From Flavipsychrobacter sp. (lineage in GTDB: Bacteria > Bacteroidota > Bacteroidia > Chitinophagales > Chitinophagaceae): a stretch of 41,032 nt of DNA. The notes beneath the pieces are model-generated. The model had not been told where the DNA came from, ran no database searches, and worked only from the letters and a program-made list of their open reading frames with translations. Both the position numbers and the translations under genes were made by a program. How positions within the stretch are numbered: the stretch's first letter is position 1; every line of letters begins with the position of its first letter. The stretch spans positions 1 through 41,032 of the forward strand of contig JAOQAP010000058.1 in assembly GCA_025963465.1 (NCBI GenBank), read 5' to 3'. Below, in pieces: positions 28,726 through 41,032 of the stretch.

Positions 28726-30594
28726 ATGTGCGGTATTGCCGGCTTATATGGGGAGTTTGCCCCGGATGCTACAAAAAAGGCGATCACTGCCCTTAATTGT
28801 TCTCTTGCCCATCGCGGGCCTGATGGTAACGGGGTGTTCCAAGCTGACGGCATTGCACTGGTTCATACCCGTTTATCTATCATAGACTTGTCTGAAAATG
28901 GCAACCAGCCATTGTATAATGAGGACAGGAGCCTGGTGCTTATCTGCAATGGGGAGCTATATAATTATAAAGAGCTGACGGCTGACCTTATTAATAAAGG
29001 ACATCGTTTTTCTTCCAATTCTGACTGTGAGGTGATACTTCACTTGTATGAAGACCTTAGCGGGGACTTACCAAAGTTGTTGAATATGCTTACAGGCATG
29101 TTTGCTTTTGCGCTATGGGACATAAAGAGACAACAGTTATTTATTGCAAGAGACAGAATAGGGATCAAGCCGTTTTATTACAGCTATGATAATGGCAAGC
29201 TTGTTTTTGCATCAGAGGTGAAGCCTGTTGCAGAGACAGGGCTAGTAGATGCAGCTATAGATTACACCTCCCTTTACGAATACTTTTTAACAGGCAGTAT
29301 ACCTGCGCCTAATACACTCTATAAAGGAGTGAAAAGCCTGGAGCAAGGGCATTTTATGGTACTTGGGCAGGGCAAAATGTCTGTTCAGGAATACTGGGAT
29401 ATACCTAAAGGGGTGAAAAAATGGAACAGTGAAGAAGAAGTGAACGATGCAGTAGAAACTCTATTGTCAGAAGTGGTGAAAGACCACCTGGTGGCTGATG
29501 TGCCGGTTGGTACATTTCTGTCGGCAGGGGTAGATTCTTCATTGATCACCGCGATGGCTGTTGCTCATCATCCGGGTATACATAGCTTTACGGCATCTTT
29601 TCCGGGTGAGCCGGAAGATGAGGGTAATATAGCAACGGCTACTGCAAAGAAGCTACAAACAACCCATCATACATTCGAACTGCGTAATGATTTTTTTAGT
29701 GATTTCTCTGAACAATTCAAAGATATAGACCAGCCTTTTGCGATCAGCAGTGCGTTGTCGCTGGGACGTATATCCGCAATGGCGCGGGAACATGTGAAAG
29801 TAGTGTTGAGCGGAGATGGCGCTGATGAACTGTTTGGTGGGTATAACCGTCACGAAGCCCCGGTACGACCTGATTTTTTGAAAAAGATACCGCAGGCGCT
29901 GCAGAATGATGTGCTGAAAATAGGTGCAAAACTGACGGGTAAAAAAAGCCTGGAAGCATTGCGTGCAAATCTTGCAGTGCCGGATGGCGAGGCCTTTTTT
30001 ATTAAGACAATTATTGCCGAACCGAAAGATGTTTTGTCGCTGTTTTCAGAGACGGCTAAAAAGGAAATAGATACAGGAAGGTACATCCGGCGGCTGGATG
30101 CATTATTTGCAAAGAGAAAAGGTGAGGATGAACTGAATAGGGTGCTTTATGTGGACATGAAAACCACACTAGTAGACGAGATGCTCACCAAATGCGACCG
30201 TATGACCATGATAAATGGAGTAGAAGGTCGTGTGCCTTTCCTTGACCACAGGCTTGTGGAACTGGCTTTCAGCATTCCTGCATGCTACAAAAGAAAGAAT
30301 GGTACAGGGAAAATAATACTTCGTGAATTGCTTGCCAAAAGGCTGGGCAGAGACCTTGCATACCGCGTAAAAACAGGATTTAACGCACCATTGCAGCAAT
30401 GGCTGAATAATGATGATCAGACAATAGCATTCGTGAAAAAGGAATTCAGCAATGCAGGCAGGTTGACATTTATAGATAAACAAACAATAGAAACTTACGC
30501 AAAAAAAATAGGGGCTGTACGAGCCGGGGTAGTGTTTTCGGTGGTATGCCTTAGCCATTTTTTAATAGATGAAAGTATTAATAGTAACAAATAA
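28726..30594 (+). CDS. asnB: Asparagine synthase-like glutamine amidotransferase (glycan-locus type)
   Basis: MCGIAGLYGEF (Cys2 retained), RGPDGNG, FLSAGVDSSLITAMA, 622 aa. Confidence 0.9.
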   Translation: MCGIAGLYGEFAPDATKKAITALNCSLAHRGPDGNGVFQADGIALVHTRLSIIDLSENGNQPLYNEDRSLVLICNGELYNYKELTADLINKGHRFSSNSDCEVILHLYEDLSGDLPKLLNMLTGMFAFALWDIKRQQLFIARDRIGIKPFYYSYDNGKLVFASEVKPVAETGLVDAAIDYTSLYEYFLTGSIPAPNTLYKGVKSLEQGHFMVLGQGKMSVQEYWDIPKGVKKWNSEEEVNDAVETLLSEVVKDHLVADVPVGTFLSAGVDSSLITAMAVAHHPGIHSFTASFPGEPEDEGNIATATAKKLQTTHHTFELRNDFFSDFSEQFKDIDQPFAISSALSLGRISAMAREHVKVVLSGDGADELFGGYNRHEAPVRPDFLKKIPQALQNDVLKIGAKLTGKKSLEALRANLAVPDGEAFFIKTIIAEPKDVLSLFSETAKKEIDTGRYIRRLDALFAKRKGEDELNRVLYVDMKTTLVDEMLTKCDRMTMINGVEGRVPFLDHRLVELAFSIPACYKRKNGTGKIILRELLAKRLGRDLAYRVKTGFNAPLQQWLNNDDQTIAFVKKEFSNAGRLTFIDKQTIETYAKKIGAVRAGVVFSVVCLSHFLIDESINSNK

Positions 30595-31804
30595 CTACCC
30601 AAGCAGGAATGCCCCTAAAAATGGCATTTTTATTCACCAGCAGGTAAAAGCCTTACAGCAGCTGGGGGTGGAATGTTATGTGCTGTTGCTGCATAATTGG
30701 TATCCTCCGTTTGGTCTGCATAGCCTGCATGCTAACTGGCAGCAGGGGCATGAAATGAAAAGCGATTTCTTTGAGGAATATGATGGGGTGAGGGTACATT
30801 CCGTGCCTATGTTCGTAAGAATGCCCGCCAGGCTATTTAAAGATAATTATTACGACAGGGCGGCACGATCGCTGGTTACCTATGTTAAGCGCAATGATAC
30901 GCTGAAGGACGCAGATTGGCTGTATGCGCACTTTCTTACTGATAACGGCTACATAGGCGCTAAGATAAAAGATGTGCTGCAGATGAAGCTGGCGGCTATA
31001 GCAAGAGGTGATGATGTGCATGCATGGCCGGAAGATAATCCTTCACTGGTGGATAACCTGCGATATGTTTTTGATCGTGCTGACCTGCTGCTTGCCAATA
31101 GTGGTAATCTGGCCATTGATACCCAACACTGGATGGAAGCCGGCAAAAAGCGTGATGTAGCAGTGGCGTATAATGGTATAGATCATAACAGGTTTCACCC
31201 TGTGGGATCGAAAGAGGAACAACTGTCACTTGCAAAAAAACATAACCTGCCACCCGGTAAGCAATACATGATATGCATAGGCACTCCAGTAGCGCTCAAG
31301 GGGTGGGTGGAGCTGCTTGAAGCCATAAAGCTGTGTGGCGAGGCATTGAATAACTGGGTGCTGCTGATGGTGGCGCCACCAAGAAATAATAAAGATGCAA
31401 TAGACCTTCAGAAGGCGGCCTCAGATATAGGAGTGTCTGATAAGACGTTGTATATGGGCGCTGTGCCTCCCAGCGATCTTATAGAAATTTTGCGTTCGGT
31501 AGATGTATTTGTATTGCCCAGCTACAATGAAGGTATGTCTAATGCACTACTGGAAGCTATGGCAAGTGGCCTGCCTTGTATAGTTACTGAAGTAGGCGGG
31601 CATAATGAAGTAATAGTAAACGGGCATAGCGGCATGCTGGTACCGCCACGTAATGTACCGGCGCTTACAACTGCTATACTGGCCGTGACAGGTGATGAAC
31701 AGTTAAGGCAGGAAATGGGAATAAAAGCGCGTGAGCGCATGATAGCTTTTGCTGATTATAAAGAAAATAGCCGCAAATTATTAGCATTACTCAAAACGCA
31801 TTAA
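30569..31804 (+). CDS. GT4 family glycosyltransferase
   Basis: VLIVTNNYPSRNAPKNGIFIHQQ...VDVFVLPSYNEGMSNALLEAMASGLPCIVTEVGG. Confidence 0.93.
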   Translation: MKVLIVTNNYPSRNAPKNGIFIHQQVKALQQLGVECYVLLLHNWYPPFGLHSLHANWQQGHEMKSDFFEEYDGVRVHSVPMFVRMPARLFKDNYYDRAARSLVTYVKRNDTLKDADWLYAHFLTDNGYIGAKIKDVLQMKLAAIARGDDVHAWPEDNPSLVDNLRYVFDRADLLLANSGNLAIDTQHWMEAGKKRDVAVAYNGIDHNRFHPVGSKEEQLSLAKKHNLPPGKQYMICIGTPVALKGWVELLEAIKLCGEALNNWVLLMVAPPRNNKDAIDLQKAASDIGVSDKTLYMGAVPPSDLIEILRSVDVFVLPSYNEGMSNALLEAMASGLPCIVTEVGGHNEVIVNGHSGMLVPPRNVPALTTAILAVTGDEQLRQEMGIKARERMIAFADYKENSRKLLALLKTH

Positions 31805-32370
31805 GCCTCACGGGTTACCTTGCCATCAGCCAGGATATAAACTAACCCGCTTTCAGGACATGTTGCTTTACCATCTTTAAAGGTAAGCTTGTGGCCATGT
31901 TCGCTCATCCAGCCGGACTGGCGGGCGGGATTGCCTATTACAAGTGCGTAAGCCGGAATGTCTTTTGTGACAACAGCACCTGCACCTATGAATGCATAAG
32001 CGCCAATATCATGGCCGCATACTATTGTGGCATTAGCGCCTATTGTTGCCCCCTTGCCTACATGGGTGCGGCTATACTGCCCACGACGATTGACACCGCT
32101 ACGGGGATTGGTAACATTGGTAAATACACATGATGGCCCGAGGAAAACATCATCGTCGCAGGTGACACCGGTATAAACCGAAACATTGTTCTGGATCTTT
32201 ACGTTTTGTCCTAATACCACTTCAGGGAATATGACGCAGTTCTGGCCGATATTGCATAGCGCTCCTATCTTACAGCCAGGCATAATGTGAGAGAAATGCC
32301 AGATCTTGGCATTGTCTCCTATTTCACAACCATCATCTATTACCGCAGTAGGGTGAACAAAGTAATTCAT
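31801..32370 (-). CDS. Left-handed beta-helix N-acetyltransferase (WbpD/WlbB-like)
   Basis: Hexapeptide repeats (IGDNAKIWHFSHIMPGCKIGALCNIGQNCVI...), GVNRRGQYSRTHVGKGATIGANATIVCG. Confidence 0.88.
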   Translation of the reverse strand: MNYFVHPTAVIDDGCEIGDNAKIWHFSHIMPGCKIGALCNIGQNCVIFPEVVLGQNVKIQNNVSVYTGVTCDDDVFLGPSCVFTNVTNPRSGVNRRGQYSRTHVGKGATIGANATIVCGHDIGAYAFIGAGAVVTKDIPAYALVIGNPARQSGWMSEHGHKLTFKDGKATCPESGLVYILADGKVTREA

Positions 32371-32389
32371 CAGTATTGTTTTATGCTGC

Positions 32390-33328
32390 TTATTTTTTAA
32401 TGAACGGGTGGTGGTCTCCTTTTGTACCAACAGGTGTAGCTATCCTGATGTCGTGCGCCAGTTGTATGCTGGATACTGCATCCTTCAGTCCGAACCCGTT
32501 ACCTTTTATTATCTCTTCGTAGCTTTTGGTATGCAGGTCGCCAAAGCCTTCGCTGAATTCTATTTCCTTGCCATCTACGGTAATAGAGCGGTAAGTTCTT
32601 TTATTCTGCGCTTTTATCTCATCCGGTATATGGTCGTAGTTGATGCTGAGGAACCAGCGTACTCTTGCCTGCTGCAAATGCAGTATGCCTGCAGCACTAT
32701 CTGCCTCAGATACATGTACGATACTTTCCTTTACATCGCCGAATATCCAAGTGAGCATATCGAAGAAATGGATGCCTATATTGGATGCAATGCCACCTGA
32801 TTTACTGAGGTCACCTTTCCAGCTGTTGAAATACCAGTTGCCGCGTGAGGTTAAGTAAGTAAGGTCAATATCGTATGTTTTATCTTTCGGGTTCTGTTCT
32901 ATCTCTTTCTTTAATGCAATGATGCCGGGGTGCAGGCGCAGTTGCAGTATGTTGTACACTTTGCTGCCGGTTTCCTTTTCTATCTCGCCAAGCGCATCAA
33001 GATTCCAAGGGTTAAGAACGAGCGGTTTTTCACAAATAGCATCGGCCTGGTTGCGTAATGCAAAACGTATATGAGAGTCGTGCAGATAGTTAGGTGTGCA
33101 TATGCTCACATAGTCTATTTTGGTGCCTGTCCTTTTCAGCTTGTCTATATGGCGGTCGAAGCGCTCAAATTCTGTAAAGAAATGGGCCTGTGGGAAATAG
33201 CTGTCCAGTATGCCTACACTGTCAAACCTGTCGAGGGCGGCTAAAAGATTACTTTTAGTATCCCTGATAGCTGTAAGATGCCTTGGGGCTATATAGCCTG
33301 CTGCTCCTATAATGGCGAAATTTTTCAT
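32390..33328 (-). CDS. Gfo/Idh/MocA oxidoreductase (WbpB/WlbA-like UDP-GlcNAcA 3-dehydrogenase)
   Basis: MKNFAIIGAAGYIAPRHLTAIRDTKSNLLAALD, CEKPLVLNPWNLDAL, GGIASNIGIHFFDMLTWIFG. Confidence 0.87.
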   Translation of the reverse strand: MKNFAIIGAAGYIAPRHLTAIRDTKSNLLAALDRFDSVGILDSYFPQAHFFTEFERFDRHIDKLKRTGTKIDYVSICTPNYLHDSHIRFALRNQADAICEKPLVLNPWNLDALGEIEKETGSKVYNILQLRLHPGIIALKKEIEQNPKDKTYDIDLTYLTSRGNWYFNSWKGDLSKSGGIASNIGIHFFDMLTWIFGDVKESIVHVSEADSAAGILHLQQARVRWFLSINYDHIPDEIKAQNKRTYRSITVDGKEIEFSEGFGDLHTKSYEEIIKGNGFGLKDAVSSIQLAHDIRIATPVGTKGDHHPFIKK

Positions 33329-33353
33329 GCGTGTAATGTAGCTCAAATGTAAG

Positions 33354-34628
33354 TTATTTTGCAGTACCTGCCAGTTCCAGTGATGCTGCATACATGCTTC
33401 TTTCCTTAGGCACATTTGCCTGCCATGTATATTGTTCTTCTATAAATTTACGGGTATTCGTCCTTGCCAGTTGCCTGTTTGTATGGAACCAGTCCAACGC
33501 CACCTGTACTTCGTCATTTAAAGCAGTATCGGTATTTTTCCCTTCCAACTGAATAACACAGCCTATGTTGTATTCATTGAGCATACCTGCAATATCACCG
33601 GTGCCAGCTTCCAGTACAACAGGTATGCCCGCACTCAGGTATTCGCCGAATTTTACGGGCTGGGAGAAATTATTGAGCGGTGATGCTGCGCGGAGCAGTA
33701 GTCCCATGTCCATAGCCGTCAGGTAGTCGGCGACTTTGTTTTGTGGTACGCTCAGCATTCTTACCCTGTTCATATCTATGCCGAACTGGGTGAGCAGTCC
33801 GGTCATTTTATCCTTGTTCTGGGTGATGAACACGGCTATAGTGTTGTCGGATACTGTAAGGGCCGACCTCATAAATGGCATTACGAGTTCTTCCAGGCAT
33901 TGATACTTTTGTGTGCCACCCAGGTACAGGATAGCTGTATTATTGCCGAGGTTTAGCTCTTGTCTTATCTTATCCCTGTTGGTGTCTGCGATGGTATTAT
34001 TTACACAGCATGGTATGAGTACAGAGTCTTTGCTTGCACCGCAATGATCTATCATATACCTGCGTAGTGGCTCACTGACCGTACACATCCATTCAGAGCC
34101 GGCAATGATATTTTTCAGCCTGTTCACATCACTGTCATAAACTATACGCTGTGCAGCAGACATATCTTTTTCATCTGTTACATCACCATTAATGAGCCGT
34201 TCCAAGGGCCAGTAGCCTCTTATGTCTATTACTATGGCATCGCCCGGAAAGCTTTTACGAGCTGCATCAGCCCATTCAAAGCTGGATTCTCCCCGGCAAT
34301 GGTAAACAGTCTTTCCTTTTAGTGAACGCCTCAGTTTTTTTATTGTGGGTATTGCCGGCCAGTTGCCCAGCCTGCTGATGCAGCCAATGAGATGTATCTT
34401 TATAGCAGGGCACCTTTGCTGTAAAGATGCTACAGTATTCTTCGCCGCTTTGTCAAATACTTCCCGCATGGGTACTATGATCCATACGGAAACCGAGGCA
34501 GGTTTTCCTGCTCCGCTGATGGTAGCCTGAGCCTGCGCCCTGTCAAACACCTGGCTGGCTACAAGAGGGGTTTTGTATTCACCGCTTGTAATAATATGTA
34601 CCAGGTTGTAAGAAGTGGGTGTCGCCAT
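33354..34628 (-). CDS. Putative GT4-like glycosyltransferase
   Basis: 424 aa; FSQPVKFGEYLSAGIPVVLEAGTGDI near the C-terminus; within glycan locus. Confidence 0.75.
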   Translation of the reverse strand: MATPTSYNLVHIITSGEYKTPLVASQVFDRAQAQATISGAGKPASVSVWIIVPMREVFDKAAKNTVASLQQRCPAIKIHLIGCISRLGNWPAIPTIKKLRRSLKGKTVYHCRGESSFEWADAARKSFPGDAIVIDIRGYWPLERLINGDVTDEKDMSAAQRIVYDSDVNRLKNIIAGSEWMCTVSEPLRRYMIDHCGASKDSVLIPCCVNNTIADTNRDKIRQELNLGNNTAILYLGGTQKYQCLEELVMPFMRSALTVSDNTIAVFITQNKDKMTGLLTQFGIDMNRVRMLSVPQNKVADYLTAMDMGLLLRAASPLNNFSQPVKFGEYLSAGIPVVLEAGTGDIAGMLNEYNIGCVIQLEGKNTDTALNDEVQVALDWFHTNRQLARTNTRKFIEEQYTWQANVPKERSMYAASLELAGTAK

Positions 34629-34633
34629 TAATG

Positions 34634-35710
34634 TTAGCTTAAATGTTGCAGAATACTGTCCCTGATGATGCCTGATGCCTGTCCGCCGCCATATAGGTTT
34701 ACTTCGAAGTTGGATTGCTTGCTGATCATTTGCCTGTATGCAGCAACTATATTGTCGGTTTTAGTTCCGGCAATCACGTTGAAGCCATTATCTACCAGTT
34801 CTACCCATTCTGTTTGCTCACGGATAGTGACGCAGTGCTTCTGAAAAAAGAAAGCTTCTTTTTGAAGACCGCCGCTATCAGTCATTACCAGCGAAGAGTT
34901 TTTGATGAGCTGTACCATGTCCAGGTAGCCCACAGGGTCTATCAGGTCAAAATCGCAGGTGATATTATTTTCAGCCAGCAGCTTTTTTGTACGGGGGTGT
35001 ATAGGTATCACCACCTTTATTTCTTTATTAATCAGGTTGAAAGCAGCAACGATCGATGTAAGATTGCCAATATTGTCGGTATTCTCGGCGCGGTGTATAG
35101 TACCAAGGATATATTGCGTGAGGCCAAGCCTTTTGATAATGTCAGATGACTCATCTGATATTTTGCTGTAGCGTATTGCTACATCCTGCATTACATCGCC
35201 TGATTTTATGATGGTGCATTTGAAATTATCAAAGCCTTCGTTCTTCAAATTTTTTATAGCAAGGTCGGTAGGGCAAAAAAGTATATCAGAGATGCGGTCG
35301 GTAAGTATCCTGTTCACTTCTTCGGGCATCTGCATTTCAAAACTGCGCAAGCCTGCCTCTATATGTATCACTTTGATATGCAGTTTTTTAGCAGTAAGTG
35401 CGCCAGCCAGCGTGGAATTGGTATCGCCATATACCAGTACAACATCTGGTTTTTCCTGCATCAGCACTTCTTCTATCTTCTCCATCATTTGCCCCGTAGA
35501 GGCCCCGTGATTACCGCCGGGAATACTGAGATTATAGTCGGGCTTGGGTATTTGCAGCTCATCAAAGAAAATATCACTCATTTTCTGATCGTAGTGCTGC
35601 CCTGTATGTATGATGATCTCTTTTATTTCACTACTGCTCTTAAAGGCGTTACTGACTACTGCTGCTTTTACAAACTGTGGCCTGGCGCCTATTATCGTTG
35701 CAATTTTCAT
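34634..35710 (-). CDS. wecB: UDP-N-acetylglucosamine 2-epimerase family (WecB/WbpI-like)
   Basis: MKIATIIGARPQFVKAAVVSNAF, HTGQHYDQKMSDIFFDEL, HIEAGLRSFEMQMPEEVNRILTDRIS, TDSGGLQKEAFF. Confidence 0.95.
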   Translation of the reverse strand: MKIATIIGARPQFVKAAVVSNAFKSSSEIKEIIIHTGQHYDQKMSDIFFDELQIPKPDYNLSIPGGNHGASTGQMMEKIEEVLMQEKPDVVLVYGDTNSTLAGALTAKKLHIKVIHIEAGLRSFEMQMPEEVNRILTDRISDILFCPTDLAIKNLKNEGFDNFKCTIIKSGDVMQDVAIRYSKISDESSDIIKRLGLTQYILGTIHRAENTDNIGNLTSIVAAFNLINKEIKVVIPIHPRTKKLLAENNITCDFDLIDPVGYLDMVQLIKNSSLVMTDSGGLQKEAFFFQKHCVTIREQTEWVELVDNGFNVIAGTKTDNIVAAYRQMISKQSNFEVNLYGGGQASGIIRDSILQHLS

Positions 35711-35771
35711 CTGTTCTTGTTAGTTATTGTAACGATCTGTTATATGGATGAAATGAACATATTTAGGTGGG

Positions 35772-35803
35772 CAAAGGTAATTATAAATTCAGCTTTAGTC
35801 AAA
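35772..35803 (-). promoter_or_regulatory. Promoter for the wecB operon
   Basis: Minus strand TTTG (35800-35803) - N20 - TACCTTTG (35772-35779). Confidence 0.65.
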
Positions 35804-35825
35804 TCGGCTGTTCTGGTTACCTTTG
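35794..35825 (+). promoter_or_regulatory. Promoter for the divergent asnB-like gene
   Basis: TTTA (35794-35797) - N20 - TACCTTTG (35818-35825), ending 9 nt before the ATG. Confidence 0.5.
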
Positions 35826-35834
35826 CGGCTGCTT

Positions 35835-37787
35835 ATGTGCGGCATACTTGCTATAGTAAATCTTAAAAATGATCTGAAGGGTAACCACCTTGCAGCTGCA
35901 TCGCGTGTAATAAGGCATCGTGGGCCTGATGATGAGGGTTTCCTGACCTGGGTGCCCGATGAACAACCGGCAATATGGGCAGGTGCCAATATTGCAGCAT
36001 CTACACAACAGCATTGGGGTTACCAGTCTATTAGTCCCGACCAGTCATTTAAAGTTGGGTTCGGGCACAGGAGGTTATCTATATTAGATCTTTCCCCACT
36101 TGGGCATCAGCCAATGGTATATGCATCGGCAGGACTTTCTATTACCTTTAATGGGGAAGTATATAACTACCTGGAGATAAAAGAGGAACTGCTGAAGCTC
36201 GGTCATAAATTCTCCGGTACTTCTGATACGGAAGTGATATTGCATGCCTGGGAGGTATGGGGAGTAAAGTGTCTTGATAAGTTCAACGGCATGTTTTCCT
36301 TTGTGATACTTGACCATAAAAAACAGGAGCTATATGCGGTAAGGGATAGGTTTGGGGTAAAGCCATTATATTATTACAAAAGCGATAGCGCCATTTACCT
36401 GTCTTCTGAAATAAAGCAGATAAGAACAGCTCCAGGTTTCCGTTTTGAGCTGAATGAATCGGTGGCAGCGCAATTCCTTGCCTACGGCACTTGTGAACAC
36501 GGAGACAACACATTTTATAAAGGTATCAGGCAGATACAGGGAGGACATTATTTGCGTATTGACCTTTCCAAAGCAGGAAGTGAACCCGAAATAAAAAAAT
36601 GGTACACGCTCACACCTAAACGCTGGAACGGCAACTATAATGAGGCGGTAACAGAATTTAAAACATTGCTCACTGATGCGGTAAGCCTGCGGTTGCGGTC
36701 TGATGTAAAAGTTGGTTCATGCCTTTCAGGAGGCCTTGATTCATCGAGCATAGTATGCATAGCGGCCGACCTGCTGAAAGCAAAAGGTGATTTTGCCGGG
36801 CAGGAGACAATTACGGCCTGCTACGATGATGCGAAGTACGATGAATGGAACTTTGCACAGGAAGTAATAAAAAAGACAAATGCAAGACCTCATAGAGTAT
36901 TCCCATCATTTGGTCAGCTGCAGCAGGAGCTGGATGCCTTTCTATGGCACCAGGATGAGCCTGTGGCAAGTACCTCTGTGTTCAGTCAATGGGCGGTGTT
37001 CAAGGGGACAAATGAAGCAGGGCTTAAAGTAATGATAGATGGACAGGGTGCGGACGAACAACTGGCAGGTTATGGTGGCAACGATATACCACTATATGCA
37101 GGCCTGCTGAAAAAAGCAAGGTTATCAGCATTGCTGGACGAATCAAAACACTATAAAAAGGAAAAGGGCGCATGGCCAAAAGGATTCCTGCTGTCAGCGC
37201 TGCAACTGAATAATAATATATTTTCTAAGGTATTACCTGCACACCTGAGGCTGTCGCAAACGCAGCAAAAGATAGAATGGATGCAGAACGCTGATGTGAA
37301 AACAATGTATGACAAACCCGCCGCCAGCCTGCAGGAAAGCCTGTTGCGGCAGTTGTACGGAGCGCCACTACCTGCGCTGCTACGATATGAAGATCACAAC
37401 TCTATGGCATGGAGTGTAGAGTCGCGTACGCCATTTATGGACTATCGCCTGCTGGAGTTCAACCTGGGCCTTCCGGAGGAATACATTTACAAAAGAGGGG
37501 TAAGGAAAACGATACTGCGTGATGCCATGCACGGTGTGATACCAGCCGCCATAGAGAACAGGAAGGATAAAATGGGCTTTGTAACCCCGGAAGAACTGTG
37601 GATAAAAGGAGAGGGTAGGGAATGGTTCATTTCGGAAGTTGATAAAGCCTGCCAGCAATTTGGCGGCACATTGCTGCATGCCGCCAATGTGAAACAACAT
37701 GTAGTGGAAATGATCAATGGCAAACGGCCCTTTGATTTTATGCCGTGGCGCATTATTTGCTTTAATAAGTGGTACAACAGCCTTTAA
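35835..37787 (+). CDS. asnB: Asparagine synthase (glutamine-hydrolysing) homologue
   Basis: MCGILAIVNL (start moved to 35835 to give Cys2), RGPDDEGF, SCLSGGLDSSSIVC, MIDGQGADEQLAGYGG. Confidence 0.92.
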   Translation: MCGILAIVNLKNDLKGNHLAAASRVIRHRGPDDEGFLTWVPDEQPAIWAGANIAASTQQHWGYQSISPDQSFKVGFGHRRLSILDLSPLGHQPMVYASAGLSITFNGEVYNYLEIKEELLKLGHKFSGTSDTEVILHAWEVWGVKCLDKFNGMFSFVILDHKKQELYAVRDRFGVKPLYYYKSDSAIYLSSEIKQIRTAPGFRFELNESVAAQFLAYGTCEHGDNTFYKGIRQIQGGHYLRIDLSKAGSEPEIKKWYTLTPKRWNGNYNEAVTEFKTLLTDAVSLRLRSDVKVGSCLSGGLDSSSIVCIAADLLKAKGDFAGQETITACYDDAKYDEWNFAQEVIKKTNARPHRVFPSFGQLQQELDAFLWHQDEPVASTSVFSQWAVFKGTNEAGLKVMIDGQGADEQLAGYGGNDIPLYAGLLKKARLSALLDESKHYKKEKGAWPKGFLLSALQLNNNIFSKVLPAHLRLSQTQQKIEWMQNADVKTMYDKPAASLQESLLRQLYGAPLPALLRYEDHNSMAWSVESRTPFMDYRLLEFNLGLPEEYIYKRGVRKTILRDAMHGVIPAAIENRKDKMGFVTPEELWIKGEGREWFISEVDKACQQFGGTLLHAANVKQHVVEMINGKRPFDFMPWRIICFNKWYNSL

Positions 37788-38974
37788 TCCTTCTTGTCAG
37801 AACCCCTCATTCTTCTTCTTATTGGCTTTATAAAAGCATACAGGAAATACAATGGCCTTGGCAGTTTGATGAATTTATAGTCAAGTATGGATGGGGTGGC
37901 CGAGTAGTTGATGTATTTCAGTATCATTTTCAGCTTTCCGGCCAGGTTGTCCTTTATCTTCAGGTTCAGCAATAATGCATCTGATGTACTTGTCCGGTCC
38001 TTATTCAGGGATAAAAGCATTGTATTAAGGTAGTTGACTGCATCCTTCGGTGCATTATAAGGTGTGGCTGGTTTTATACCCAGTAGCTGATCAGCGATAT
38101 ACAGCCCTATCTGTACCGACTTATTGAACCCGTATTTTTTGCTTACAGCATTTATTTCAGCCCAATCCAGGGTATTGCCGTTCTTTAGTATCATCGATAG
38201 GTCCATTATGTACTTCATCAGTGCCCAGCGTTGGTTGAGTCCATGATGAGATACCAGCGCCATGAAGTGATGGGTGTCGCTAAGCAATTTTATTTTCTGT
38301 CCGTATACTTCTTTATGCTGCAGATCGTCGAACAGTAGTGAATTTGGTAGGGTAGTCGGGAAGTCAATTATCTGGCTGGCTACCACCCAATGAAACTCTG
38401 CGTGAAATTTTCGTTTGTCATTTTCATACTTGTCAAAATAATACTCACGGGTATATTTGAAATGAGTTTCTTTAAAGTCGTCAGGCACATCGGATTTGTC
38501 TATGTAGCCAGATTGTTCAAAAGCGTTTTTTATGATGCCCAGGTCTTTTATACTTAGGTTGATCAGGAAGTCGATATCGGAAAACTCCCGGAGTGCTGTG
38601 TCTTTATAATATTCCAAGGCGAACATGCTGCCCTTGTAAGGTATGGCCATTACTCCGGCTTTATCCAGCTGGTCGTATATGCGGGTCAATTCCCTTGCAT
38701 GCTTCTGGTTGTGCATAGCTATGTGCATGCAGTCTGCCTGTAGCGTGTCTTTTATTTCTTTCGGCACCTCAAGTTTGTAGAGGATCTTAAAAACAACGGG
38801 CCGTAACTGGTGGATGCGTGTTATAGAATACACCTTCTGCCAGTCAATATTGTTTGTACTGATAAAAGTTGCCAGCTCATCTTCTGTAGCTGTACCAACA
38901 AAGACACGGCATGCCAGGACTATCACAGAGATCTCTGTTTCGAAATCACGTTTTAGCTCATCTGTAGTTATCAT
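37784..38974 (-). CDS. Nucleotidyltransferase family protein (NTP_transf_5-like)
   Basis: MAIPYKGSMFALEYYKDTALREFSDIDFLI motif, LVSHHGLNQRWALMKYIMDLSMIL. Confidence 0.85.
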   Translation of the reverse strand: MITTDELKRDFETEISVIVLACRVFVGTATEDELATFISTNNIDWQKVYSITRIHQLRPVVFKILYKLEVPKEIKDTLQADCMHIAMHNQKHARELTRIYDQLDKAGVMAIPYKGSMFALEYYKDTALREFSDIDFLINLSIKDLGIIKNAFEQSGYIDKSDVPDDFKETHFKYTREYYFDKYENDKRKFHAEFHWVVASQIIDFPTTLPNSLLFDDLQHKEVYGQKIKLLSDTHHFMALVSHHGLNQRWALMKYIMDLSMILKNGNTLDWAEINAVSKKYGFNKSVQIGLYIADQLLGIKPATPYNAPKDAVNYLNTMLLSLNKDRTSTSDALLLNLKIKDNLAGKLKMILKYINYSATPSILDYKFIKLPRPLYFLYAFIKPIRRRMRGSDKKD

Positions 38975-40740
38975 ATCTTCTGGTTGTCAAACATTTTTTT
39001 GAAGATGCCATTTTGATCAATGAGGCTGTCAAAGCTACCTTCTTCTTCAATTTTGCCATCCTTCATTACATATATATTGTCCGCTATCTTCAGGTTATAC
39101 AGCGTATGCGATATGAGTATCACTACTTTTCCTTCCGCATGTTCTTTCAGGTTTTTGAACAGCTCGTGTTCAGCTATGGCATCTATGGCGCTGGTTGGTT
39201 CATCAAGCACTATCATTCCTGCATTTTTGTAAAACATACGAGCCAATGCCAGTTTTTGCCATTGGCCACCACTTAGTTCTTCGCTTTTGTCAAATATGCG
39301 GCCCAGCCGGGTATCATAGTTTTTTGGTAAGGTATTGATATAGCTATCTGCTCCGGCTAATGTCGCCGCAAGCTTAGTGTCTGTTTGCTGTTTGCCATTT
39401 CTTCCTGCCAGTGTAATGTTGTCATTTACTGTAAGGAAGTATTTTTCAAAATCCTGGAAGAGGAAAAATGTATTTGCACGGAAAGATCCGTTGGAGATGG
39501 TCTGTGCACTTATCCCGTCTATATTTATTGTTCCTGATTGCAGTTCATAAAGGCGGGCCAGTAATTTTACAAGGGTAGACTTACCTGATCCGTTCTCGCC
39601 AACTATCGCAATTATTTTGCCCGGTTTGCAGCTGATGGATACGTTATTTAATACCGGCCTTGTAGTTGCAGGGTAGGTGAAAGACAGGTTCTTCACTTCC
39701 AACCCATTATTGATAACCGGGAATGGGGTAGTTGTGTCAGCTGCTGCCGGTACTATGTCGAAGAAGGTAAAGAGATCTTTTAGGAAAAGCCGTTGCTGGA
39801 ATATCTGTACAAAAGATTGCAGGAAATTTTTAGATGCTGACTGTAGTCGTTGAAAGCCTTGTATGTAGATAATGAATACCCCAAGCGTTATCTGCCCGTC
39901 CCATGCATTTTTAGCCAGTGATATGAAAATGGTGACCATGACTACAGCCTCCAGCACCTGTGTGAGCAGGCTATACCGGGTTAGTTTAATGTTAAGCGCC
40001 TTCTTGCCTTCATAAACAGATGATCGGATGGCCTTGAATTTCCTGATAAACTCATCGGCAAAGCCGAACACACGTACCTCTTTGGCAAAAGAAATGCCTG
40101 TAAGCACCTGGTGCAGGTAGCCGGCCTCCCGCTCTACAGGAATAAATCTTTTCTCCAGTCGGTAGAGCTGGTAGCTGTAATACCACTTAATGCCTGCCAG
40201 GGGTATAGACAACAAGATGAACAACAAGGCATAAAACCATTGTAGCGTAAAGAAGAAGCCAATTAGGAACAACAGCGAAAAACTATTGAGCAGCAGGCCG
40301 TTCATATTGGTCACCAGCTGGGGTATGCGATATTGCGATTGCTGATGCGCCAAGAGGAGATAGTCATGGTAATAGTGATTCACGTAATATTCCAGGTCTA
40401 CATGTATTGCCTTATTTAGTACCAGCTCTGCTACATGGTCGCTTATCTTCTGCTGTTGTAATGTATTGATGTATGTAGAAAACTGGTTGGCAACGGCGAT
40501 AAGAAATTGTGCGATGCAGAAACTGATGATAACAGGCGATACCTGCTCAAAAGGAACTTTGTTACCGCTGACCATTAGCTCTATGAGCCTCTTAATAAAG
40601 TATAGGGAGATGATAGGAAGCGCTGCCAGCACGAACTGCAGGATGATGTTGATCACAACCATGCCTTTGCTTGCCTGCCATGCAAGCAAAGTAGTTCTGA
40701 ATATATCTTTGGTAAAATCTTTAAACTGTGGTCCTTTCAT
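38971..40740 (-). CDS. ABC transporter, fused permease/ATPase (exporter)
   Basis: Walker A IVGENGSGKSTLVKLL, signature EELSGGQWQKLALARMF, Walker B AGMIVLDEPTSAID; ATG at 40740 preferred over TTG at 40770. Confidence 0.93.
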   Translation of the reverse strand: MKGPQFKDFTKDIFRTTLLAWQASKGMVVINIILQFVLAALPIISLYFIKRLIELMVSGNKVPFEQVSPVIISFCIAQFLIAVANQFSTYINTLQQQKISDHVAELVLNKAIHVDLEYYVNHYYHDYLLLAHQQSQYRIPQLVTNMNGLLLNSFSLLFLIGFFFTLQWFYALLFILLSIPLAGIKWYYSYQLYRLEKRFIPVEREAGYLHQVLTGISFAKEVRVFGFADEFIRKFKAIRSSVYEGKKALNIKLTRYSLLTQVLEAVVMVTIFISLAKNAWDGQITLGVFIIYIQGFQRLQSASKNFLQSFVQIFQQRLFLKDLFTFFDIVPAAADTTTPFPVINNGLEVKNLSFTYPATTRPVLNNVSISCKPGKIIAIVGENGSGKSTLVKLLARLYELQSGTINIDGISAQTISNGSFRANTFFLFQDFEKYFLTVNDNITLAGRNGKQQTDTKLAATLAGADSYINTLPKNYDTRLGRIFDKSEELSGGQWQKLALARMFYKNAGMIVLDEPTSAIDAIAEHELFKNLKEHAEGKVVILISHTLYNLKIADNIYVMKDGKIEEEGSFDSLIDQNGIFKKMFDNQKI

Positions 40741-40824
40741 CAATCGCTTTAAAGTGCGTGAACTGCCCAAAAGTACAATCTACACCAATATTTTATATCA
40801 TTGCACTTGCAAACTATCTGATCT

Positions 40825-41032
40825 GTGTACTACTATTGGGGCTTTGAGTTAAATATTGCATCGGATATTGAGATACCCGAACTGTTGCCTGCACAATTTG
40901 AGCAACAGCCCGATCTTACGATCAGGCTGGCAAAAGTACACGTTAATATACAGCAGGAAGCAAGTACGGGTAAATTGCGGGAATACATCATCAGTAGCGA
41001 TGAGTACTACCTGGATGTGAAAAAAGTATGTA
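40825..41032 (+). CDS. N-terminus of an HprK-like serine kinase (truncated by window edge)
   Basis: Open frame from GTG 40825 after an in-frame TGA: (M)YYYWGFELNIASDIEIPELLPAQFEQQPDLTIRLAKVHVNIQQ..., resembles the N-terminus of HPr kinase-like proteins of RiPP/glycan loci. Confidence 0.55.
   Translation, partial: MYYYWGFELNIASDIEIPELLPAQFEQQPDLTIRLAKVHVNIQQEASTGKLREYIISSDEYYLDVKKVC

Follow-up and report, generated by a model that had tools for sequence, protein, structure and literature searches.

The closest described systems are the lasso peptide clusters of paeninodin, pseudomycoidin and bsf. It has been reported that the kinases PadeK, ThcoK, SyanK and PsmK phosphorylate a C-terminal Ser, and the relevant passages of the two sources place the action of PadeK-type kinases on this residue of the linear precursor (PMC9266682, PMC8498205). 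The paeninodin cluster (pade) of Paenibacillus dendritiformis has a B1/B2 split and a kinase of this type. The pseudomycoidin cluster (psm) of the Firmicute Bacillus pseudomycoides combines an HprK-like kinase and a nucleotidyltransferase with a C-terminal Ser. PsmN is required for the phosphate to carry one or two hexoses. The same passages leave undecided whether PsmN transfers the sugar itself as a glycosyltransferase or is a nucleotidyltransferase that depends on a second enzyme, attribute the hexose to PsmN or possibly to a host enzyme, and mention no GT-C gene (PMC9266682, PMC8498205). The bsf cluster of Bradymonas sediminis comprises A, B1, B2, C, D, K and N, and its B1 accelerates phosphorylation (PMC10368454). 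Sulfotransferase and nucleotidyltransferase neighbours are already noted in Firmicutes lasso clusters in the corresponding passages of PMC8498205, and Bacteroidetes are named as an underexplored lasso source in those of PMC7533575, citing Tietz 2017.

The locus described here lies at the right end of a 41,032-nucleotide stretch of Flavipsychrobacter sp. DNA, referred to as the window. With a rough probability of 0.88, it represents one end of a kinase/nucleotidyltransferase-type lasso cluster (A, B1, B2, C, D, K, N), the chemistry being assigned by analogy. Judged from its sequence, the cluster is of the paeninodin/pseudomycoidin type, a known kind that is widespread in Bacteroidota. It resembles pade in the B1/B2 split and the predicted kinase target, and differs in core sequence and phylum. 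The HprK-like kinase, nucleotidyltransferase and C-terminal Ser are shared with psm. All seven functions of bsf are found, with separate B1 and B2 in both clusters. In contrast to bsf, where bsfA has Ile at position -2 and the kinase acts on Ser3, the precursor has Thr at -2 and a C-terminal Ser. Further differences from bsf are an extra GT-C-like gene, a convergent B1 and the divergence of N-D from K.

The window edge and its probable continuation on a second contig

The features at the edge of the window are as follows.

37784..38974, minus strand: N, an NTP_transf_5 nucleotidyltransferase-fold enzyme (PF14907, E=6.4e-39)
38971..40770, minus strand: D, an ABC exporter of 599 aa with membrane and ATPase parts (ABC_tran/ABC_membrane)
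40771..40824, no strand: intergenic region between the divergent exporter and kinase, read from the sequence; 54 nt, or about 84 nt if translation of the exporter begins at the later site
40825..41032, plus strand: K, the first 69 codons of an HprK-like kinase, with a GTG start and cut by the contig end

The N gene is an ORF of 396 aa, identified by family profile search, and its product contains the active-site-like motif KGS...SDIDFL. It is a candidate tailoring protein of the PsmN/BsfN type. The ABC_tran domain of D scores above its profile cut-off and the membrane domain slightly below. The earlier note on this DNA had described a nucleotidyltransferase gene and an exporter gene overlapping by 4 nt, and a divergent truncated ORF 54 nt away. 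Both observations hold, the overlap being 38971-38974 and the spacing that between the listed exporter start, TTG at 40770, and the GTG at 40825. The next in-frame ATG, near 40740, is an alternative start for D. In the contiguous lasso locus of G140, a genome of the same family (locus L038), the N homologue has 30% identity (E 2e-58) and also overlaps an ABC exporter gene, and the D gene is about 50% identical to that of the window. A further locus, L123, contains a close relative of these two D genes.

The divergent ORF reads VYYYWGFELNIASDIEIPELLPA... from its GTG and leaves the window at its end. The 69-aa fragment alone matched no Pfam or NCBIfam family. Its alignment with the N-terminus of the intact HprK-like kinase of L038 gives 42% identity over 69 aa (E 9e-12), a match which is far above chance at the sequence level and bears out the suggested relation to HprK. 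The window makes up the whole of contig C199 in a draft genome of 277 contigs (97.5% complete), so there is no sequence beyond 41032 on this contig.

The missing half was located by searching the entire genome for the B2 family, PF13471. The one match over the cut-off lies on contig C175, 1.9 kb from the contig end. Reading inward from this end, the first gene encodes 231 residues of a kinase whose N-terminal part is missing. Genes for a membrane protein of 345 aa, B2, a cyclase and a precursor come next, followed by B1.

C175:36607-35912 = L005:11608-10913, minus strand: K, remainder of the HprK-like kinase, very likely continuing the ORF cut at 41032
L005:10832-9795 (C175), minus strand: GT-C-like membrane protein, 345 aa
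L005:9795-9376 (C175), minus strand: B2, 139 aa (PF13471, NF033537)
L005:9366-7474 (C175), minus strand: cyclase C, 630 aa (NF033535 as best match, PF00733)
L005:7370-7227 (C175), minus strand: precursor A, 47 aa
L005:6801-7097 (C175), plus strand: B1, PqqD-like, 98 aa, convergent with precursor A (PF05402)

The kinase is separated from the GT-C-like gene by 80 bp. As the GT-C-like gene shares 1 nt with B2 and the gap from B2 to the cyclase is 9 nt, this arrangement is read as one operon. B1, A, C, B2 and the main part of the kinase are physically linked on C175, and the link to C199 is deduced from the split kinase gene. A whole-genome search with an intact kinase returned exactly two HprK-like matches, at the C175 end and the window end. 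The two pieces are complementary, lie in matching orientation and are each cut by a contig end. When joined, with three X residues inserted at the join as guided by separate alignments to G140, they align gap-free to intact kinases with 3 residues missing (~8 bases). The contig ends have only 3 bases in common and these do not join in frame, from which the gap of about 8 bases is inferred; no read or scaffold spans them. The C199-C175 join, taken from the split gene and not from reads, is thus very likely.

Two other readings of this arrangement have been weighed. The edge could belong to a polysaccharide locus, in which AsnB, WecB, glycosyltransferases, the nucleotidyltransferase and the ABC exporter build and export a glycan. 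The genes to the left of 37784 do look glycan-type, with an AsnB at 35838-37787 (MCG start), a WecB-like gene at 34634-35710, glycosyltransferases, a hexapeptide acetyltransferase and an oxidoreductase. This competing explanation, raised in the earlier note, suits those left neighbours and fails for the nucleotidyltransferase/ABC/kinase edge, and is considered highly improbable. The nucleotidyltransferase and ABC genes share an overlap and point away from the kinase, and the glycan AsnB is convergent with the nucleotidyltransferase and so lies in another transcription unit. The same pair stands beside B1, B2, C, A and K in G140, and lasso clusters in which a nucleotidyltransferase adjoins an HprK-like kinase, B2 and D are already established in the relevant passages of PMC8498205. 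It is equally hard to credit that the window carries only a nucleotidyltransferase, an exporter and a truncated or degenerate kinase while the C175 lasso genes lie elsewhere in the chromosome. The assembly gives no link, and another genome, G677, has such parts on two contigs; against this stand the complementary, equally oriented, contig-end-cut kinase pieces lacking 3 residues, and the contiguous arrangement in G140. The reading of the edge as half of a kinase-type lasso cluster is therefore preferred, all of the parts predicted by the earlier note being located on C175 of the same genome.

A glycan-type locus is observed at window positions 28726-37787, with two AsnB-type amidotransferases, a WecB-like epimerase, glycosyltransferases, an oxidoreductase and a hexapeptide acetyltransferase, most of them assigned by eye. 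The two AsnB proteins of the window were rejected as the lasso cyclase. They have MCG starts, score better as TIGR01536 or TIGR03108, and lie among glycan genes.

Core lasso genes and predicted chemistry

Gene content, family assignments, key motifs and precursor features are read directly from the two contigs. The B2 protein, a transglutaminase-like protein as anticipated, is the sole match over the cut-off in the genome (PF13471, 78 bits, cut-off 26; NF033537, 95 bits, cut-off 33) and has Cys77, His112 and Asp127 in typical contexts. B1, the expected PqqD-like protein, is the one PqqD match of the genome above the Pfam cut-off (PF05402, 57.1 bits, cut-off 23.4). Among NCBIfam families it scores highest with the lasso PqqD chaperone NF033536, at 70.8 bits and under the cut-off of 80. 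A dedicated cyclase had been foreseen with less certainty, and a lasso-type AsnB homologue distinct from the AsnB genes of the window is present. Its best NCBIfam match is the lasso cyclase NF033535 (E 8e-116), at 388 bits and under the cut-off of 525, and PF00733 is over its cut-off. The N-terminus reads MSAIFGI with no Cys2, and the cyclase therefore lacks the glutaminase Cys; the SGGLDS motif is kept. A scan of a named genome collection with the cyclase as single-protein query returned no relative.

The precursor is a 47-aa ORF with the Thr at the penultimate leader position that had been predicted. It consists of a leader ending in ...WSDPKITVLSINENTL and the core GSTNPGDDGGPAGTLS. Its features are Thr at -2, Gly1, Asp7/Asp8, a C-terminal Ser (...AGTLS) and the leader motif WSDPKI. 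Compared with the leader motif YxxPxL, the sequence MEKARKEAITVIKKSWSDPKITVLSINENTL followed by GSTNPGDDGGPAGTLS has W for Y and I for L. The precursors of G069 and G676 have a related leader and a C-terminal Ser.

In the kinase, an upstream His, the GDSGAGKST sequence and a downstream DD align with 13 Bacteroidota homologues. The protein scores far below every curated HprK cut-off, with 35.2 of 200 bits for TIGR04352 of the HPr-rel-A system (C175 part only) and 21.8 of 33.3 for PF07475. The P-loop region of the G140 homologue gives a weak match to HprK structures (E 0.006).

By analogy with the described systems, B1 (PqqD fold) would bind the leader of the 47-aa precursor, and the HprK-like kinase would act on the precursor while it is still linear, phosphorylating its C-terminal Ser. 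B2 would cleave after ...NENTL, and C would link Gly1 to Asp7 or Asp8, threading the tail. The predicted product is a lasso of 16 residues, GSTNPGDDGGPAGTLS, that carries a phosphate on its tail. N would then modify this phosphate, probably by attaching hexose in line with reports on pseudomycoidin, and D would export the product. The GT-C-fold membrane protein may contribute a sugar, transferred outside the inner membrane from a polyprenyl-phosphate donor.

The GT-C-like membrane protein

The 345-aa protein has no significant sequence match in Pfam, NCBIfam or the PDB, and a PDB profile search returned chance matches only (E 0.24 and up). An AlphaFold2 model was built for a homologue of 56% identity (L138), with pLDDT 86 and pTM 0.87. 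The 16 best Foldseek matches of this model are all GT-C enzymes, at a probability of about 1, the top ones being ArnT, ALG12 (TM 0.66), ALG9, PMTs, PglB and DPY19; the best E-value is about 0.008 and none is below 0.001. Asp41, in the first-loop region, is invariant among homologues. By the modelled fold of its homologue, the protein resembles the GT-C glycosyltransferases (ArnT, ALG9/ALG12, PMT, PglB), from which it differs in lacking a significant sequence match and their soluble domains.

In relatives, the gene usually lies immediately upstream of tuf, and its surroundings contain no lasso genes. The tuf locus of this genome (L134:579-1501, contig C43) contains tRNAs and no GT-C-like gene, and the only copy is that in the lasso operon. 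This copy shares 54-56% identity with those of other genera, as against 39-43% with those of genus mates. A horizontal origin is not claimed, as the membrane-protein tree left the placement of this copy unresolved. The closest homologue found (59% identity, L136 of G677) is divergent from another nucleotidyltransferase-ABC pair, a placement which suggests, without proving, that the protein functions with the nucleotidyltransferase and exporter. A wider order-level search for the membrane gene returned only distant copies, with no lasso genes or tuf within 1.5 kb. A Bacteroidota-like GT-C gene also occurs at L145:4229-5305, on a contig labelled Candidatus Nitrotoga, and may be a binning error in a metagenome-assembled genome.

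Within the lasso reading, there is an even chance that the GT-C-like protein is a passenger, or an envelope or self-protection gene, and has no part in peptide tailoring. The usual position of its homologues beside tuf, away from lasso genes, and its absence from the other B2-bearing loci examined are in keeping with this. Its 1-nt overlap with B2, its position 80 bp after the kinase, its absence from the tuf locus of its own genome and the placement of its closest homologue beside a second nucleotidyltransferase-ABC pair argue for a role in the cluster. A specific version of such a role is possible but somewhat doubtful: after phosphorylation and export, the lasso would receive a sugar from a polyprenyl-phosphate carrier through a GT-C enzyme working on the outer side of the inner membrane. 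The gene of this enzyme would have been recruited into the lasso operon from one that stands beside tuf in related bacteria.

Relatives across Bacteroidota

In a phylum-wide sample of 395 Bacteroidota genomes, 36 had a B2 over the cut-off. Of the 30 B2 loci fetched, most also contain an HprK-like gene. The core set of G140 lies on one contig in L038, where the nucleotidyltransferase-ABC pair is divergent from B1-B2, followed by three tail-collar genes, a methyltransferase, the cyclase, the precursor, a sulfotransferase and the kinase. In G676 (L101), the kinase-B2-cyclase-precursor order and the convergent B1 are as here, without the membrane gene. In G677, B1-B2-kinase-sulfotransferase lie on one contig (L160:7923-10495) and the nucleotidyltransferase-ABC pair and GT-C gene on another (L136:4911-10556), where the pair diverges from GT-C, a SET-domain-like protein (assigned by eye) and a methyltransferase. 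No cyclase was found near either gene set.

A leader-motif search, in which some predictions are weak, gave precursor candidates of which those of this genome and of L037, L038, L101, L121, L123 and L125 end in Ser. The L038 candidate has Ile at -2, a variant reported for phosphorylated lasso peptides (PMC10368454). A C-terminal Ser is not universal in Bacteroidota HprK-like lasso loci, a point that weighs against the reading preferred here. Candidates without it lie beside HprK-like genes at L102:7374-7529, L110:5254-5415 and L113:7966-8103, and the kinases there may act on another residue.

In five loci, a sulfotransferase gene is the immediate neighbour of the HprK-like kinase.

L038:12257-13111: sulfotransferase by the kinase
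L037:174-944 with L068:13264-14187: sulfotransferase by the kinase
L112:16314-17144: sulfotransferase by the kinase
L125:10496-11326: sulfotransferase by the kinase
L160:7923-8777: sulfotransferase by the kinase

APS-kinase genes are near the sulfotransferase in two of these (L038, L068). Since the sulfotransferase adjoins the kinase in all five and APS-kinase genes are close by in two, the arrangement suggests that these loci make sulfated lasso peptides.

Three tandem phage tail-collar genes (PF07484-type) also occur within or beside four Bacteroidota lasso loci.

L038:7369-9137: tail-collar triplet
L101:4725-6427: tail-collar triplet
L112:10551-12204: tail-collar triplet
L125:13423-15133: tail-collar triplet

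A link of these genes to the present cluster is unsupported, as the collar triplet of this genome is on contig C273, with no lasso genes there. Among openly licensed papers, none pairing 'lasso peptide' with 'tail collar' was found.

The lasso core is of an already known kind, and the GT-C-like operon member is the part not found described in openly licensed papers. If this gene is a passenger, the cluster is another instance of the known kinase/nucleotidyltransferase lasso kind. Together with its relatives, the cluster places the same tailoring set, with defined precursors, across the Bacteroidota, the relevant passages of lasso reviews describing phosphorylated lasso peptides from Firmicutes and Proteobacteria. 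The natural pairing of a nucleotidyltransferase with a GT-C-fold protein would provide a means of testing whether hexose transfer is carried out by the nucleotidyltransferase-family protein or calls for a separate glycosyltransferase.
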